From IMG/VR virus record IMGVR_UViG_3300032334_000254, positions 1 through 25,850 of that record: a DNA stretch of 25,850 nucleotides, one strand, 5' to 3'. The notes beneath the pieces were generated by a model, which made no database searches, was not told the DNA's origin, and saw only the letters and a list, made by a program, of their open reading frames with translations. This document shows, one piece after another, positions 1 through 23,604 of this stretch. Position numbers and translations under genes: made by a program. Within the stretch, counting starts at the first letter, position 1. Every line of letters begins with the position of its first letter. The DNA is from a virus.

Positions 1-1230
1 CTACTGCTATCTGATTGTCCAGCTGTCCAATCATCAGGGAATCCCTGCAATCGTTCACACTCTACTGGTGTTAAGCGGCGAACAGTTCCTCTAGCAACAC
101 CGTGACCGCTTACTGAATCTAGTGTGTACATAGGATCTCCGTCCTCTCCGTAACCCTTACCCTGTGGACCAGCTTGGTCATTGCGACCAATGATTGTCCC
201 TTGTATAGGTATTGTTGCAACCATAGAAACGTTGTTCCCTCCTGTACCCATACGAGATGTAAGGGTATTCATAGTCTCTCCTTGTATTCTTGCTCCATCG
301 TGGTAGTGAGGGTGAAAGACAATGATAGTAGTACGCACATCGCCATTATCAAATGCGTTCATAGTAGGCATTACTCCTCCCTCGATCCAAGTTTCGTAAT
401 CATCTTCATTCTGCGCTCGCCTACTCTTTGTGAACCACAAGCTTGTTCTCTGCAACATACTGGTTGCCCACTCCCTTATAGTCTCGTGCTTGTAATGTGT
501 TTACCTTGTCTGCATAGACAACGACATTATCTTCAGGTCTCTTGTATGAGGTAGCAGTTATGGTTGCTGGTCCTTCTGTGTAGCCTGCGAAACTTGACTG
601 ACCAAAGCTTCTTGCAGTGCTGGTGGCAGAGTCTTCCCTCTGCGGTTTGCTCGGCGCAAGATTCCTTCGCACGCCTTGCTACTTAAATAGTATTTCTCCG
701 GCGCTTCCGCTTGAAGCACGTCGGCAAGCGATGAAGACACGCTTGCGCCGTTGGGGTACTCCGAAGTACTGAGCATCAAGCACGCGCCAGGCAACACTAT
801 ACCCGAGGTCTGCCATCGTCCCGAGTACGACAGCAAAGTCTGCTCCGTTGTTAGAGGATAAGAGACCAGGTACATTTTCGAGGATGGCGTACTCTGTTTG
901 CGTTTCTTCCACAATTCTTGCAATCTCCCAGAATAACCCGCTTCGTGCGCCAGCAAGACCAGCTCTTTTGCCAGCGACTGACAGATCTTGGCAGGGAAAT
1001 CCTCCTGTAATAATTCCTCTGCTTGGTTCAAATCCTGCTCCAATTAAATCACTCCCCTTTACTGTAGTTACATCATCAAATAATTTGCTATTAGGAAAAC
1101 GGTGTGCCAATACTTCTTGGCACTTCTTATCTATCTCAACTGAAGCTACAACATCAACGCCGTTGCGCTCCATAGCTAGGTCAAAGCCACCAACACCAGC
1201 GAATAGCGATACGCCTGTTAGTTTACTCAT
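1..1230 (-). pseudogene. DNA (cytosine-5) methyltransferase, interrupted; 3' end beyond window
   Basis: This is a C5 cytosine methyltransferase that would methylate phage or host DNA. From the ATG at 1228-1230 it reads the SAM-binding motif I (LFAGVGGFDLAM, about residues 9-20), motif IV with the catalytic Cys80 (GGFPCQDLS), the ENV motif (about 118-120) and QRRKRVF (about 160-166). Codon 184 is an amber TAG (679-681). Clear family sequence continues in the same frame after it (RRNLAPSKPQRE, then the target-recognition region) down to about position 435. There the frame must shift to continue as FTKSRRAQNEDDYETW and on to motif IX/X (VRRLTPVECERLQGFPDDW, near 50-110). One extra G at about 435 would explain the shift. 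The start overlaps the TAA and TGA of the two ORFs upstream. As written, only a 183-residue fragment without the recognition domain would be made. It is either a decayed gene or carries sequencing errors. The enzyme family is certain; functional status is not. Confidence 0.85.
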
Positions 1231-1522
1231 CAGTACCAGCCTCTTCCTCTGTGGTGGGCAAGAGCGCGGCACGCAGATCCTCGATAGCGGTATTCAAGGT
1301 ATCGTAAACCGTGAAGGATTTGAAGTTCAGGGCTTGAACTGCGCTCTCCAAGGAGTTGAGCAATTCCGTAAGCCGTGCTTCTTGGTACGCCCTGTGAGTT
1401 TCTTGGGCGAGCAAGGTGGTCGAAGCGGGATTCAGAGGACCAAAGGGTGTCAAGGCACTTCGCTTCTCGTCTCGTATATCCGAGAGCTTGACTATATTCT
1501 CGTGCTGTTCGTCTATTTTCAC
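1223..1522 (-). CDS. Hypothetical 99-aa protein overprinting the SLT gene
   Basis: I do not recognise this protein. It starts with GTG (1520-1522), which overlaps the TGA of the upstream 94-aa gene as GTGA, and a strong GGAGG lies just upstream. Its TAA overlaps the methyltransferase start. The product is acidic and helical-looking, rich in Ala, Leu, Glu and Thr, with no Cys or Trp (for example EARLTELLNSLESAVQAL). First codon positions are purine-rich, as in real genes. It lies in a different frame over nearly the whole SLT gene, which has the stronger family match. Either both are translated, making this an overprinted gene, or this one is a well-placed chance ORF. The start and stop junctions fit the operon's pattern very well, which is why it is kept. 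Confidence 0.5.
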   Translation of the reverse strand: MKIDEQHENIVKLSDIRDEKRSALTPFGPLNPASTTLLAQETHRAYQEARLTELLNSLESAVQALNFKSFTVYDTLNTAIEDLRAALLPTTEEEAGTDE

Positions 1523-3679: not shown

Positions 3680-4038
3680 TAGCGGATTTCCTTTTCTAGT
3701 TGGAAGCAATCATCGCAAATTGCTGGGTAGAAATCAACGCCTAACCAACCATCTTTGCGGTATTGCTCGCGGGTTTCTTCTGTTAATAGGTTTGTTGTTG
3801 TGTGGCAGACGAGGCACTCGTTACGCATCGCCTCAAAGCGGTTTGTATCTACATCGTCTGCATTTGTTGCTTGTGATGTAACTACGATTCCATTTGCAGA
3901 GTGCCACGCAACAGAGTGGAAACTGCAATCTGTGCAAGTTGGGTCTAAGTCATTGAGAATTTCTAACTGTGTTTCGTCTGTTGTTACCTTGCCGCAGTTC
4001 AAGCAGATTGCCTTTGTGATGCCGTGATATGTAGCCAT
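3679..4038 (-). CDS. Double zinc-ribbon protein, 119 aa
   Basis: Four CxxC knuckles: CLNC (about 12-15), CTDC (35-38), CLVC (75-78) and CDDC (108-111), which would form two zinc ribbons. The linker SANGIVVTSQATNADDVD is polar. It is the first gene of the leftward operon, about 25 nt after a likely transcription start, with AAAGGTG as ribosome binding site. First-gene position and zinc ribbons fit an early DNA- or RNA-polymerase-binding regulator, but this is inference. Confidence 0.75.
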   Translation of the reverse strand: MATYHGITKAICLNCGKVTTDETQLEILNDLDPTCTDCSFHSVAWHSANGIVVTSQATNADDVDTNRFEAMRNECLVCHTTTNLLTEETREQYRKDGWLGVDFYPAICDDCFQLEKEIR

Positions 4039-4069
4039 TTGCTAACACCTTTCTGTAGTTGATAGGGAG

Positions 4070-4099
4070 ATTCTATACCTGCCTCTGCCCTATATGCAA
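4070..4099 (-). promoter_or_regulatory. Likely sigma-70 promoter of the leftward operon
   Basis: On the minus strand TTGCAT (4094-4099) is followed after 18 nt by TAGAAT (4070-4075); TATAGA with a 16-nt spacer overlaps it. The start site would lie near 4063, leaving a short leader of about 25 nt before the 119-aa gene. Confidence 0.4.
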
Positions 4100-4172
4100 C
4101 ACCATTTGAAAGATTCTTTTTGTCGTGTCTTATGTTACTCACCGGTAAGTTACTGATCTTTAATCCTGGTAA

Positions 4173-4200
4173 CTTGGGAAAAGTCTGAGAGTTTCCCGAG
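4173..4200 (+). repeat. 9-bp inverted repeat upstream of the SOS boxes
   Basis: CTTGGGAAA and TTTCCCGAG pair around a 10-nt loop in plus-strand RNA (one G-U pair); the minus-strand RNA has an A-C mismatch. No T-tract follows. It could be a protein site or an RNA stem. Confidence 0.4.
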
Positions 4201-4222
4201 CTGAAACAACAGGGCAACAGAG

Positions 4223-4238
4223 TCGAACATCTGTTCGG
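4223..4238. promoter_or_regulatory. SOS-box-like palindrome 1
   Basis: TCGAACATCTGTTCGG contains the palindrome CGAACA-TC-TGTTCG and fits the GAAC-N4-GTTC core of the LexA box of actinobacteria and other Gram-positive bacteria. A near-identical copy lies 37 bp to the right. Confidence 0.6.
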
Positions 4239-4259
4239 TGCGGCAGGGTCATAGTCCAA

Positions 4260-4275
4260 TCGAACAACTGTTCGG
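4260..4275. promoter_or_regulatory. SOS-box-like palindrome 2
   Basis: TCGAACAACTGTTCGG differs from the first copy at one position in the centre. Two copies 37 bp apart suggest paired operator binding by host LexA or by a phage repressor with a similar site. Confidence 0.6.
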
Positions 4276-4294
4276 GGGTGCCGAGGGTACTGCC

Positions 4295-4324
4295 ACCCCT
4301 GCAAACCCCTGCAATATCTTGCAA
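4295..4324 (+). repeat. 10-bp tandem iterons
   Basis: ACCCCTGCAA occurs twice in direct tandem (4295-4304, 4305-4314), followed in register by the degenerate TATCTTGCAA (4315-4324). A further ACCCTGCAA lies at 4359-4367. The 10-bp spacing would put each unit on the same DNA face, as in initiator iterons. Confidence 0.55.
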
Positions 4325-4327
4325 AAG

Positions 4328-4348
4328 TTATCCACAGACTTATCCACA
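4328..4348 (+). promoter_or_regulatory. Two perfect DnaA boxes
   Basis: TTATCCACA appears twice (4328-4336 and 4340-4348), 12 bp apart start to start and each followed by G. This is the high-affinity consensus for bacterial DnaA. The boxes lie directly after the iterons and before AT-rich DNA. Confidence 0.7.
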
Positions 4349-4580
4349 GGCTGGGGATACCCTGCAACGCGGTCGGGCGCGCCAAAATACTGCTACCCCC
4401 CATATTAAAAAAACAGGCGTACGGACTATATACTCCCCAGAAAAATATATTTGCTAAAGTGAAGTTGATCTAATATGCAGCTTGACCTGCGGTTATACTA
4501 TATGTGTTACAACTCACAGAATAGAAAACGCGAATCGACTTAAATTTCGCGCCTTATATATAGTAGGGGAGTAAAGCGGG

Positions 4581-4645
4581 GAAGGGTCTGGTTTACGACC
4601 CGTACGCTACGGGTGAAACCCTTCGCGTAGCCCCCTAGGGCGAAG
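4581..4645 (+). ncRNA. Strongly folded leader element before terL
   Basis: ACCCGTA-CGC-TACGGGT (4598-4614) is a perfect 7-bp hairpin. It can be extended by GGTTT (4590-4594) with AAACC (4616-4620), or enclosed by GAAGGGT (4581-4587) with ACCCTTC (4618-4624); the two outer stems compete. CTTCGC (4621-4626) also pairs with GCGAAG (4640-4645). The competing pairings resemble a switchable leader. Whether it is transcribed is unknown. Confidence 0.4.
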
Positions 4646-4698
4646 CGAGCAGTACCACTAAATGCGGGATAGGTCTATCTAAATACAGATCTCTAGTA

Positions 4699-4720
4699 TC
4701 TCACTATGTGAGACTTTTCT
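4699..4720 (+). terminator. Weak hairpin with short T-run
   Basis: TCTCAC-TAT-GTGAGA is a perfect 6-bp stem followed by CTTTTCT. It could be a weak terminator or attenuator about 75 nt before terL. The stem is short and AT-containing, so this is uncertain. Confidence 0.3.
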
Positions 4721-4794
4721 AGCCCAGTAAAAACTCAACTTCCCTAGTATAAAAGAAGAGCCATCACGGCCGGTCTAACTATTAGGAGCATTAC

Positions 4795-6654
4795 GTGGCA
4801 GAGAATTCAGCAGATATAGCTAAGAGGATTATCCTCGGCTGCGTTGCAGAAGGTATGACTATCGACGCCGCTTGCGGTTCTGCCGGTAAGTCGATGAAGA
4901 CGTATGAGTACTACCGTCGCACCGATAAGGTATTTGCAGATAAGATTGATCGTACCCGGCTCGGCCTGAAGGACAAGCAGTTCCAAGGTGGAGACGTTCA
5001 CGATATCGATTTCGTCGAGTTCCGCCAGCGATTCCTACACTCCAAGACTTTTCCACATCAAATCAACCTAATAGATGTGATTGAAGGACGCAACCCATCG
5101 TGGTTGCACCCAAGTATGAAGTACGAACCGGGCCTAGCGGCAAACCGTGTACTTATTAACATTCCGCCAAACCACGCCAAGTCCATTACGGTCACGGTCG
5201 ACTACGTCACGTGGAAGGTAGCTCAGAACCCGAACTTCCGAGTTTTGATTGTATCCCAGACACAGCAGTTAGCTGCCGACTTTCTCTACGCCATCAAGCA
5301 AAGACTAACGCATCCTATGTATGCAGACCTCCAAAGTGCTTATGCTGCTGGTGTAGGGTTTAACTCTAAGACTGCATCTTGGCAGGCAACCCGCGTCACC
5401 TTCGGTGATGAGCTTCGTGAATCTTCTGAAAAGGATCCGAACATCGAGGCCGTCGGTATCGGCGGTCAAATTTACGGCAAGCGTGCCGATATGATTATTG
5501 TCGATGACGCGGTCACACTTAAGAACGCTAACGAGTTTGAGAAGCAGATACGCTGGTTAACCCAGGACGTACGCTCTCGTCTTAACCCTACCGGTAAGTT
5601 AATTGTTATTGGTACTCGTGTAGCCTCGGTTGACCTATACCGCGAACTACGTAACGAAGACCGCTACCCAGGCGGTCAGGTTCCGTGGAAGTATCTAGCG
5701 ATGCCGGCACTTCTTGAGATTGATGAGAACCCCGACAAGTGGGTTACCCTATGGCCAGCATCCGATGCTCCATTTGATGGACAGGGTGAGGACGATAAGA
5801 ACGAAGACGGTCTATATCCTAGATGGTCTGGTCGTAACTTATATAACGAACGCCAAGCGATGGATGCTTCGACGTGGGCGCTGGTCTACCAGCAACAAGA
5901 TGTATCTGAGAACGCAGCGTTTGACCCAGTATGTGTTCGTGGCTCTATGGATGGAATGCGTAAAGCAGGACGTCTGGAGATGGGACATCCCGGTCATCCA
6001 AAAGACTTAACAGGCTTCAGCTTTATCTGCGGTATGGACCCGGCGATTGTTGGCGATACCGCGGCAGTCTGCTACGCCATTGACCGTAATACTAGTAAGC
6101 GCTACATCGTAGACGTTATCAAGATTACCAAGCCTAGCCCGCAGCAAATCCGCGACATCATTCTTAACTGGACGCAGCTCTACAGTCCGTCCGAGTGGAT
6201 TATTGAGAAGAACGCTTTCCAGGCATTCTTGACGCAGGATGAAGGCATCAGATTATTCTTGGCAGGACGCGGCGTTATCTTGCGTGAACACCATACCGGT
6301 TCTAATAAATGGGACTCAGGCTTTGGTGTTGCATCTATGGCTACCTTATTTGGTACCAAGCAGCAAGACGGTAAGCATCACCGCGACAACTTGATACACC
6401 TACCGAGTGATCAGACAGAGAACATTAAGGCTCTAGTAGAGCAGTTGATTACGTGGACACCTACGACTAAGGGTAAGACCGATATCGTAATGGCGCTCTG
6501 GTTCTGTGAGATCCGAGCACGTGAGATGCTCAACTACGGTCAGTACGCAACGCACCACCTTAAGAATCCTTTCCTCTCCAGGGCGGAGTTGGGAAAGCGA
6601 GTGGTCATCAATATAGATGAGGCACTTGCAGCACAGAACAAAACATTCGTCTAG
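4795..6654 (+). CDS. terL: Terminase large subunit
   Basis: The packaging motor ATPase and nuclease that cuts concatemeric DNA and pumps it through the portal. ATPase domain: Walker A-like NIPPNHAKS (about 122-130), Walker B MIIVDD (233-238) and the coupling motif IGTR (272-275). RNase H-like nuclease: the acidic residues are D415 in GMDPAI, E471 in IIEKNAF and D563 in KTDIVMALWF. Length 619 is normal, but the first 55 or so residues look like a helix-turn-helix (IDAACGSAGKSMKTYEYYRR) of the kind found in small terminases, and no separate small subunit is seen. The start is GTG, with AGGAG 7 nt upstream, at the head of the rightward operon. Codons here look more GC-rich than in the genes at 9-17 kb. 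Confidence 0.93.
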   Translation: MAENSADIAKRIILGCVAEGMTIDAACGSAGKSMKTYEYYRRTDKVFADKIDRTRLGLKDKQFQGGDVHDIDFVEFRQRFLHSKTFPHQINLIDVIEGRNPSWLHPSMKYEPGLAANRVLINIPPNHAKSITVTVDYVTWKVAQNPNFRVLIVSQTQQLAADFLYAIKQRLTHPMYADLQSAYAAGVGFNSKTASWQATRVTFGDELRESSEKDPNIEAVGIGGQIYGKRADMIIVDDAVTLKNANEFEKQIRWLTQDVRSRLNPTGKLIVIGTRVASVDLYRELRNEDRYPGGQVPWKYLAMPALLEIDENPDKWVTLWPASDAPFDGQGEDDKNEDGLYPRWSGRNLYNERQAMDASTWALVYQQQDVSENAAFDPVCVRGSMDGMRKAGRLEMGHPGHPKDLTGFSFICGMDPAIVGDTAAVCYAIDRNTSKRYIVDVIKITKPSPQQIRDIILNWTQLYSPSEWIIEKNAFQAFLTQDEGIRLFLAGRGVILREHHTGSNKWDSGFGVASMATLFGTKQQDGKHHRDNLIHLPSDQTENIKALVEQLITWTPTTKGKTDIVMALWFCEIRAREMLNYGQYATHHLKNPFLSRAELGKRVVINIDEALAAQNKTFV

Positions 6655-22519: not shown

Positions 22520-23604
22520 AGGTAGCCGTATACACAATCTGTAAGAATGAGGAAAAGTATGTCCAGCGCTGGTATGAATCTACCAGAGATGCCGACTACC
22601 ATATCCTCACAGATACAGGATCAACAGACGGAACAGTCGAACTCGCTAGAAGTCTTGGTATCACTGTTAACGAAATTGTACTCAAACCCTTTAGGTTTGA
22701 TGACGCGAGAAATGCATCGCTGATATCAATACCCACAGATGTTGATTACTGCATAGCGTTAGACGTAGATGAAGTATGTGCACCAGGCTGGCGCGAAGCG
22801 TTACAGGTAGCATACGACAAAGGTATCGATAGACCAACCTATCGTCGTATCGAAGCATTCAATGAAGACGGTTCACCGCTTACAGAGTTTAATGGCTTTA
22901 AGGTACACCGTCGCTTTGGTATCAGATGGCACTACCCGATTCACGAGGTACTGGACTGGTATTCAACAGAGCCAGAAAAGTCTGAGTACATCGAAGGCTT
23001 TGAGATTCACCATCACCAGAACAAAGAAACATCTAGAGCGCAGTATCTACCGCTACTAGAGATGGCAGTTAAAGAAAAGCCAGACGCTAGAAACTTGTAC
23101 TACCTAGGACGAGAACTGTCCTACTACAAGGAGTATGAGCGAAGCAAAGAGATGCTATTGAAGTATCTTGAAGTATCTATCTTTAAGCAGGAACGCAGTT
23201 CAGCTTGTCGCATCCTAGGTATCGTCGATCCTAAGAATGCAGAAGAGTGGTTCACCCGTGCTACAGAAGAATGGGAAAGCCGTGAGTCTTTCTTAGCACT
23301 GGCTAACTATTACTACCTCCGTAAGGAGTGGGATGAGTGCCACCTTGTGGCAAAGACTGCACTGCAGTTCGACAAGAAGCCTATGGAGTTTCTAGTAGAA
23401 GCCTGGGCGTGGGGCCATATGGCAGAAGACTTAGTTGCAGTAAGTGCGTGGCAACTAGGAGATTACAAGACAGCACTACATCACGGCCTCAAGGCGTTAG
23501 CACTAGCGCCTGATAATGAAAGACTTAAGAGCAATGTTCAATTCTATGAAAGTAAGGTAAGCGATGCCAACATTCAGTCAGATGACGTCAGAGGTACAGA
23601 GTAA
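22516..23604 (+). CDS. GT2 glycosyltransferase with TPR-like C-terminus
   Basis: N-terminal GT-A domain: AVYTICKNEEKYVQRWYEST (4-23), DTGSTDGT (33-40, nucleotide-sugar site) and the DxD motif DVD at 83-85 in ALDVDEV. Residues from about 190 on form TPR-like helical repeats (ARNLYYLGRELSYYKEYERS; ALANYYYLRKEWDECHLVAK). The fusion resembles SPBc2 YokD/GT2-TPR enzymes that bind extended substrates. The start is the ATG at 22516, inside the upstream stop. The end overlaps the next gene by up to 41 nt. Confidence 0.85.
   Translation: MKVAVYTICKNEEKYVQRWYESTRDADYHILTDTGSTDGTVELARSLGITVNEIVLKPFRFDDARNASLISIPTDVDYCIALDVDEVCAPGWREALQVAYDKGIDRPTYRRIEAFNEDGSPLTEFNGFKVHRRFGIRWHYPIHEVLDWYSTEPEKSEYIEGFEIHHHQNKETSRAQYLPLLEMAVKEKPDARNLYYLGRELSYYKEYERSKEMLLKYLEVSIFKQERSSACRILGIVDPKNAEEWFTRATEEWESRESFLALANYYYLRKEWDECHLVAKTALQFDKKPMEFLVEAWAWGHMAEDLVAVSAWQLGDYKTALHHGLKALALAPDNERLKSNVQFYESKVSDANIQSDDVRGTE

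Follow-up and report, generated by a model that had tools for sequence, protein, structure and literature searches.

The window analyzed here is a whole IMG/VR virus record of 25,850 bases. According to its open reading frames (ORFs) and family matches, it contains a 756-base divergent stretch without a credible gene (positions 4039–4794), which separates a leftward ORF of 119 amino acids from the gene for the terminase large subunit (4795–6654, + strand; phrog_38, E = 3.5e-63), with the portal and major capsid genes located downstream of the latter. With the leftward ORF starting at 4038 and the terminase at 4795, the gene-free divergent setting described in an earlier reading of the letters alone (the sequence-only reading), which had proposed an origin built from iterons, DnaA boxes, and AT-rich DNA, is borne out. 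Elsewhere in the window, a C5 cytosine methyltransferase is seemingly split over several ORFs in different frames (679–1272, 421–672, and 3–458; window 3–1272, − strand).

Two exact copies of the DnaA box TTATCCACA are located 12 bases apart within this stretch (box 1, 4328–4336; box 2, 4340–4348; both + strand), and no further exact copy occurs anywhere in the window. In first-order random sequences as long as the window, we counted a mean of 0.18 copies and found a pair within 30 bases in 0 of 300 sequences, so the two perfect boxes at 4328 and 4340 stand as they had been described. They are followed by a degenerate inverted box (4351–4359, − strand; CTGGGGATA on the + strand), whose counterpart in relatives is TGTGGACAG or TGTGGA; two consensus boxes 12 bases apart, together with the inverted box in relatives, form a cluster with oriC spacing. 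Beside the boxes we identified a conserved element overlooked so far, CAACGCGGTCGGGCG (4365–4379, + strand), whose core GGTCGGGCG/GCTCGGGCG is present in 12 of 19 box-bearing versus 5 of 37 box-free relatives, and in the distant locus L101 as well.

The supposed iterons are two tandem copies of ACCCCTGCAA (CTGCAA-N4-CTGCAA; 4295–4314, + strand). TRF reports just 2.0 copies, short of an array of at least three directly repeated initiator sites, and we therefore rule out an iteron origin; taken alone, the repeat is weak evidence, given that some perfect tandem 10-mer is expected in random sequence with P ~0.04, and the window holds a second one at 23158. No Rep/O-type initiator gene was found among the named protein families of the complete relative G006, in which several small ORFs are without a family. 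CTGCAA-N4-CTGCAA may nevertheless be a minor real element, which also occurs upstream of the terminase in four other loci (L002, L004, L008, and L011), as TTGCAG in L017, and nowhere else in the loci. The AT-rich DNA that had been noted after the boxes was confirmed: with 74% AT, positions 4427–4476 have the highest AT content of all 50-base stretches in the window and constitute a candidate unwinding region. Because box-free relatives keep this block too, it does not single out DnaA initiation.

A terminase search of IMG/VR yielded 80 related loci. Across 63 loci, the 1 kb upstream of the terminase holds 40 copies of TTATCCACA, against 3 in 735 kb elsewhere, an enrichment of ~160-fold at this site. 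Many relatives share the same order of elements, namely a left element, two TTATCCACA boxes at a 12-base period, the inverted box, CAACGCGGTCGGGCG, and ACCCC..TTAA, followed by TATACTCCCCAgAAAAATATATTT, TGACCTGC, a CRP-like palindrome, and TTATATATAGTAGGGG. The conserved left element (GCCG...TAGT-like; here GTGCCGAGGGTACTGCC, 4278–4294, + strand) was recognized partly by eye; a loose pattern for it finds matches in 43 of 56 relatives. At a terminase identity of 40%, L101 still carries the complete cassette, located about as far from the terminase, and the box pair is also present in L161 (48% identity). The pair lies 18–32 bases before the terminase start in L136 and L146 and ~190 bases before it in L109/L118, positions that would suit transcriptional control too. 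In L069 (G014), the conserved intergenic block is inverted at a contig end beside the terminase, which is either a real inversion or an assembly artefact. In five other phages without a terminase hit (L124, L128, L143, L152, and L158), pairs of TTATCCACA are joined by an inverted box, with GCAACAC/CCAACAC and a TTGACA after it; these may be cassettes of a similar kind in another location.

Roughly two thirds of the relatives have no boxes, close ones included. When box presence was mapped onto the terminase tree, at least 12 gain/loss changes were needed, 9 of which are forced by well-supported branches; judged by this distribution, the DnaA-box cassette is exchangeable between related phages. 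The sequence-only reading had counted box loss among close relatives against an origin, and this does occur in part, since the boxes are absent from some relatives with a 92–98% identical terminase. Some of these box-free close relatives, however, have a different dedicated motif at this place, which agrees better with the swapping of an initiation module than with boxes arising by chance. This motif is a 23-bp inverted repeat, AGACA-N13-TGTCT, with 24 copies upstream of the terminase and 0 elsewhere (63 loci), its spacing being almost always 13; it is carried by ~20 relatives (e.g., L026 and L061; L225:2742) and is found upstream of terL in the cultured ‘Ca. Planktophila’ phage E7. Among 56 loci, 18 have the boxes alone, 19 the inverted repeat alone, 1 both, and 18 neither. 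This near-exclusion is significant when kinship is ignored (Fisher P = 4e-4), and phylogenetically independent pairs point in the same direction, short of significance (median P 0.06–0.25). No gene in 14 genomes cleanly tracks either the boxes or the inverted repeat. We consider AGACA-N13-TGTCT a probable alternative initiation site. A separate palindrome, AGACAC..TATGCCTAGTATGTGTCT, lies ahead of the replication genes in G006 (~27.0 kb after terL), G005, and G008, with a shorter variant in G003, and is possibly an operator.

Searching 84,980 genomes for the TTATCCACANNNTTATCCACAGNCTGTGGA pattern (two boxes plus inverted box) returned only 20 loci, many of them actinobacterial; the pattern adjoins dnaA in L230 and L243, and a yidC-type gene in L232. 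The box pair was present in 16 of 198 Actinomycetota genomes, and in those with multiple hits every match falls into one cluster, which in some of them holds only with the chromosome closed into a circle. Four of these 16 genomes contain the exact 22-mer of the window, TTATCCACAGACTTATCCACAG. The box cluster is evidently oriC at the loci with dnaA and, by extension, probably so in the other Actinomycetota genomes. The window resembles actinobacterial oriC in having a TTATCCACA pair at a 12-base period with an inverted box after it, and in an exact 22-mer found in such clusters, but differs from it in having only two strong boxes and no adjoining dnaA/dnaN, in its position upstream of a phage terminase, and in being exchangeable between close relatives.

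This comparison covers Actinomycetota genomes at large, the host itself being deduced from phage features: we infer a low-GC freshwater actinobacterium because of the terminase kinship to phages E7 and F5, the presence of WhiB in a complete relative, and LexA boxes of actinobacterial type. A terminase search of the 84,980 genomes found neither a prophage nor a host. The ‘Ca. Planktophila’ phages E7 and F5, which have been cultured and infect low-GC freshwater actinobacteria (PMC10202952), share with the window's family a 47% identical terminase, whiB, sigma-70, and a size of ~39 kb, but have no DnaA boxes upstream of terL, where E7 has AGACA-N13-TGTCT instead. In lakes, freshwater Nanopelagicales rank among the most abundant bacteria; their first phages were cultured only recently (PMC10202952), and we found no account in the literature of how Nanopelagicales phages start replication.

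The same intergenic region contains further elements of regulatory type. Two LexA/SOS-box-like palindromes that had been overlooked, TCGAACATCTGTTCGG (4223–4238) and TCGAACAACTGTTCGG (4260–4275, 37 bases from the first), are perfect sites of the TCGAAC-N4-GTTCGA type; the Streptomyces LexA motif is tCGAAC-N4-GNNCGa (PMC9380542). Motifs of this type occur 11 times upstream of the terminase versus 0 times elsewhere (63 loci). LexA-box-like palindromes are also seen in L009, L010, L041, L043, and L046, paired 36–37 bases apart except for the one site of L010. Host SOS control of the leftward genes or of replication via these boxes is possible. On the terminase side, a CRP/FNR-like palindrome, TGTGTTACAACTCACA (4503–4518), precedes TTATATATAGTAGGGG (4554–4569, + strand), a putative promoter of the structural operon that is present in 58 of 63 relatives and accompanied by sigma-70-like hexamers (4535–4564). 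In 56 of the 58 relatives having TTATATATAGTAGGGG, GTG-N8-CAC lies 43–53 bases before it, as a perfect TGTGA-N6-TCACA in 20 relatives, and the combination suggests that CRP activates a promoter of the structural operon here. A T7-type RNA polymerase promoter at TTATATATAGTAGGGG was rejected, as the named G006 proteins include no RNA polymerase; a host-polymerase promoter is likelier because of the sigma-factor gene and the CRP-like site. We also discarded a conserved RNA in the terminase leader, for which Rfam gave no near-threshold match and the fold scored no better than shuffled sequences (z = −0.13).

The region may, in addition, contain a genome end. In five deposited Streptomyces Beephvirinae genomes (the podoviruses Immanuel3, Manuel, Stella, Dennebes, and FlowerPower), a direct terminal repeat of 253–276 bases ends at GGGGAGTG/AGTCCCC (the slash marking the edge), at the matching place upstream of terL. 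By short-motif alignment, the ACCCC...TTAA element of the window, TACCCCCCATATTAAAA (4394–4410, + strand), is the counterpart of GACCCGGGGGTTGTTAAAC near this edge, and TATATACTCCCCAG (4427–4440, + strand), the counterpart of GGGGAGTG/AGTCCCC, is the predicted right edge of a terminal repeat; at the level of profiles, nhmmer detects no homology between the block of the window's family and the Streptomyces repeat edge. The two regions are alike in their location upstream of terL, the replication gene set, and the motif order ACCC-TTAA, TCCCC, TGACCT, TATATATA, but the Beephvirinae have neither TTRTCCACA nor a LexA box in their terminal-repeat region. The ordered set of short motifs is confined to the terminal-repeat region in 4 of 6 genomes and found in 0 controls. 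By synteny and short motifs, the window region matches the Beephvirinae terminal repeat. A repeat of this kind, if the window's phage has one, would have its right edge near 4430 and contain the boxes. The records of the window's family are fragments or circularly assembled, and neither complete relative (G005 or G006) shows ends. Contig ends bunch 200–700 bases upstream of the terminase (19 seen versus 5.8 expected), which we attribute to assemblies breaking where the sequence varies and do not count as proof of genome ends.

G006, 39,000 bases long once a 113-base end overlap is removed, encodes an exonuclease, a DnaB-like helicase, RusA, CHC2 and Toprim primase parts, WhiB, and a sigma factor. 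Ten near-complete relatives contain no match to DnaA (PF00308), family-A polymerase (PF00476, the one polymerase family covered), or tyrosine integrase (PF00589), and a phage of the G006 type plausibly needs the host initiator and replicase. Beside the replication genes of G006, a proteasome/HslV-like peptidase match was observed (L216:13322–14023, − strand). A cumulative GC-skew minimum at the site, proposed in the sequence-only reading as a check, did not materialize: in G005 and G006 it lies ~25.4 kb from the terminase, with no skew switch at the DnaA-box site, a weak test given that the skew appears to follow gene direction and is thereby confounded.

The presence of a conserved oriC-type DnaA-binding cassette upstream of the terminase is well supported by these comparisons, and we estimate a probability of about 60% that positions 4295–4380 serve to recruit host DnaA and start replication of the phage genome. 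Of the iteron/DnaA-dependent origin originally proposed, the iteron half falls away, while use of the host initiator is well supported by box conservation, the oriC arrangement, and the lack of DnaA and family-A polymerase genes in the ten near-complete relatives. Host DnaA would oligomerize on the two boxes and help to open the nearby AT-rich DNA, after which a phage or host helicase and primase would be loaded and the host replicase would copy the genome. The same region would double as a genome end, with terminal repeat and packaging site, and the LexA and CRP-like sites would tie the neighboring genes to the state of the host. Phage-borne origins near AT-rich DNA are known from P1 oriR, which also has DnaA boxes, and lambda ori; the candidate origin of the window shares these traits but lacks an iteron array, and no initiator gene of the Rep/O type was found among the named families of G006. 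The origin reading is limited by the number of strong boxes, two being fewer than in most oriC.

The main rival gives the boxes a role in regulation or titration instead of initiation: bound DnaA would repress the structural operon and/or the leftward genes or set the timing of their transcription, or many copies of the phage would sequester DnaA and slow down initiation in the host. Their position between divergent transcription units, and directly before the terminase start codon in L136 and L146, agrees with this, as do the LexA and CRP-like sites that mark the region as a regulatory hub and the many relatives that do without boxes. We nonetheless regard it as rather improbable: a pair plus inverted box is the arrangement of oriC and not that of single regulatory boxes, and in a family without a recognized initiator something must start replication. 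It is less probable still that the region is a terminal repeat and packaging site only, with the conserved elements recognized by the terminase and the boxes incidental. The Beephvirinae, with a 43% identical terminase, a repeat ending in the corresponding intergenic region, and the ordered motifs confined to that place in 4 of 6 genomes and absent from the controls, lend this some weight, but the cassette changes completely between phages whose terminase is 86–98% identical, which makes the terminase an unlikely reader; the perfect DnaA consensus and oriC geometry would be left unexplained, and the family-wide model misses the Streptomyces edge. Nine-base motifs are short enough for two consensus-like nonamers without function to be conceivable, yet the empty tally of pairs in 300 random sequences and the strong enrichment at one site across 63 loci make chance very hard to credit, and the conservation of the boxes refutes it.

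Returning to a DnaA-recruiting origin, frequent exchange fits a cassette that matches the host. More tentatively, and with odds clearly against it, the family may carry a swappable initiation cassette at its genome end, consisting either of host DnaA boxes or of AGACA-N13-TGTCT with a putative reader protein. Repeated switching would then retarget initiation between control by the host and control of another kind, with the replication genes unchanged, and through the adjoining LexA and CRP-like sites the genome end would sense the state of the host. Near-identical phages in which a compact origin of host type gives way to a different motif would provide a natural experiment on the exchange of initiation control, and such cassette swapping could tell whether these phages follow the replication state of their host.
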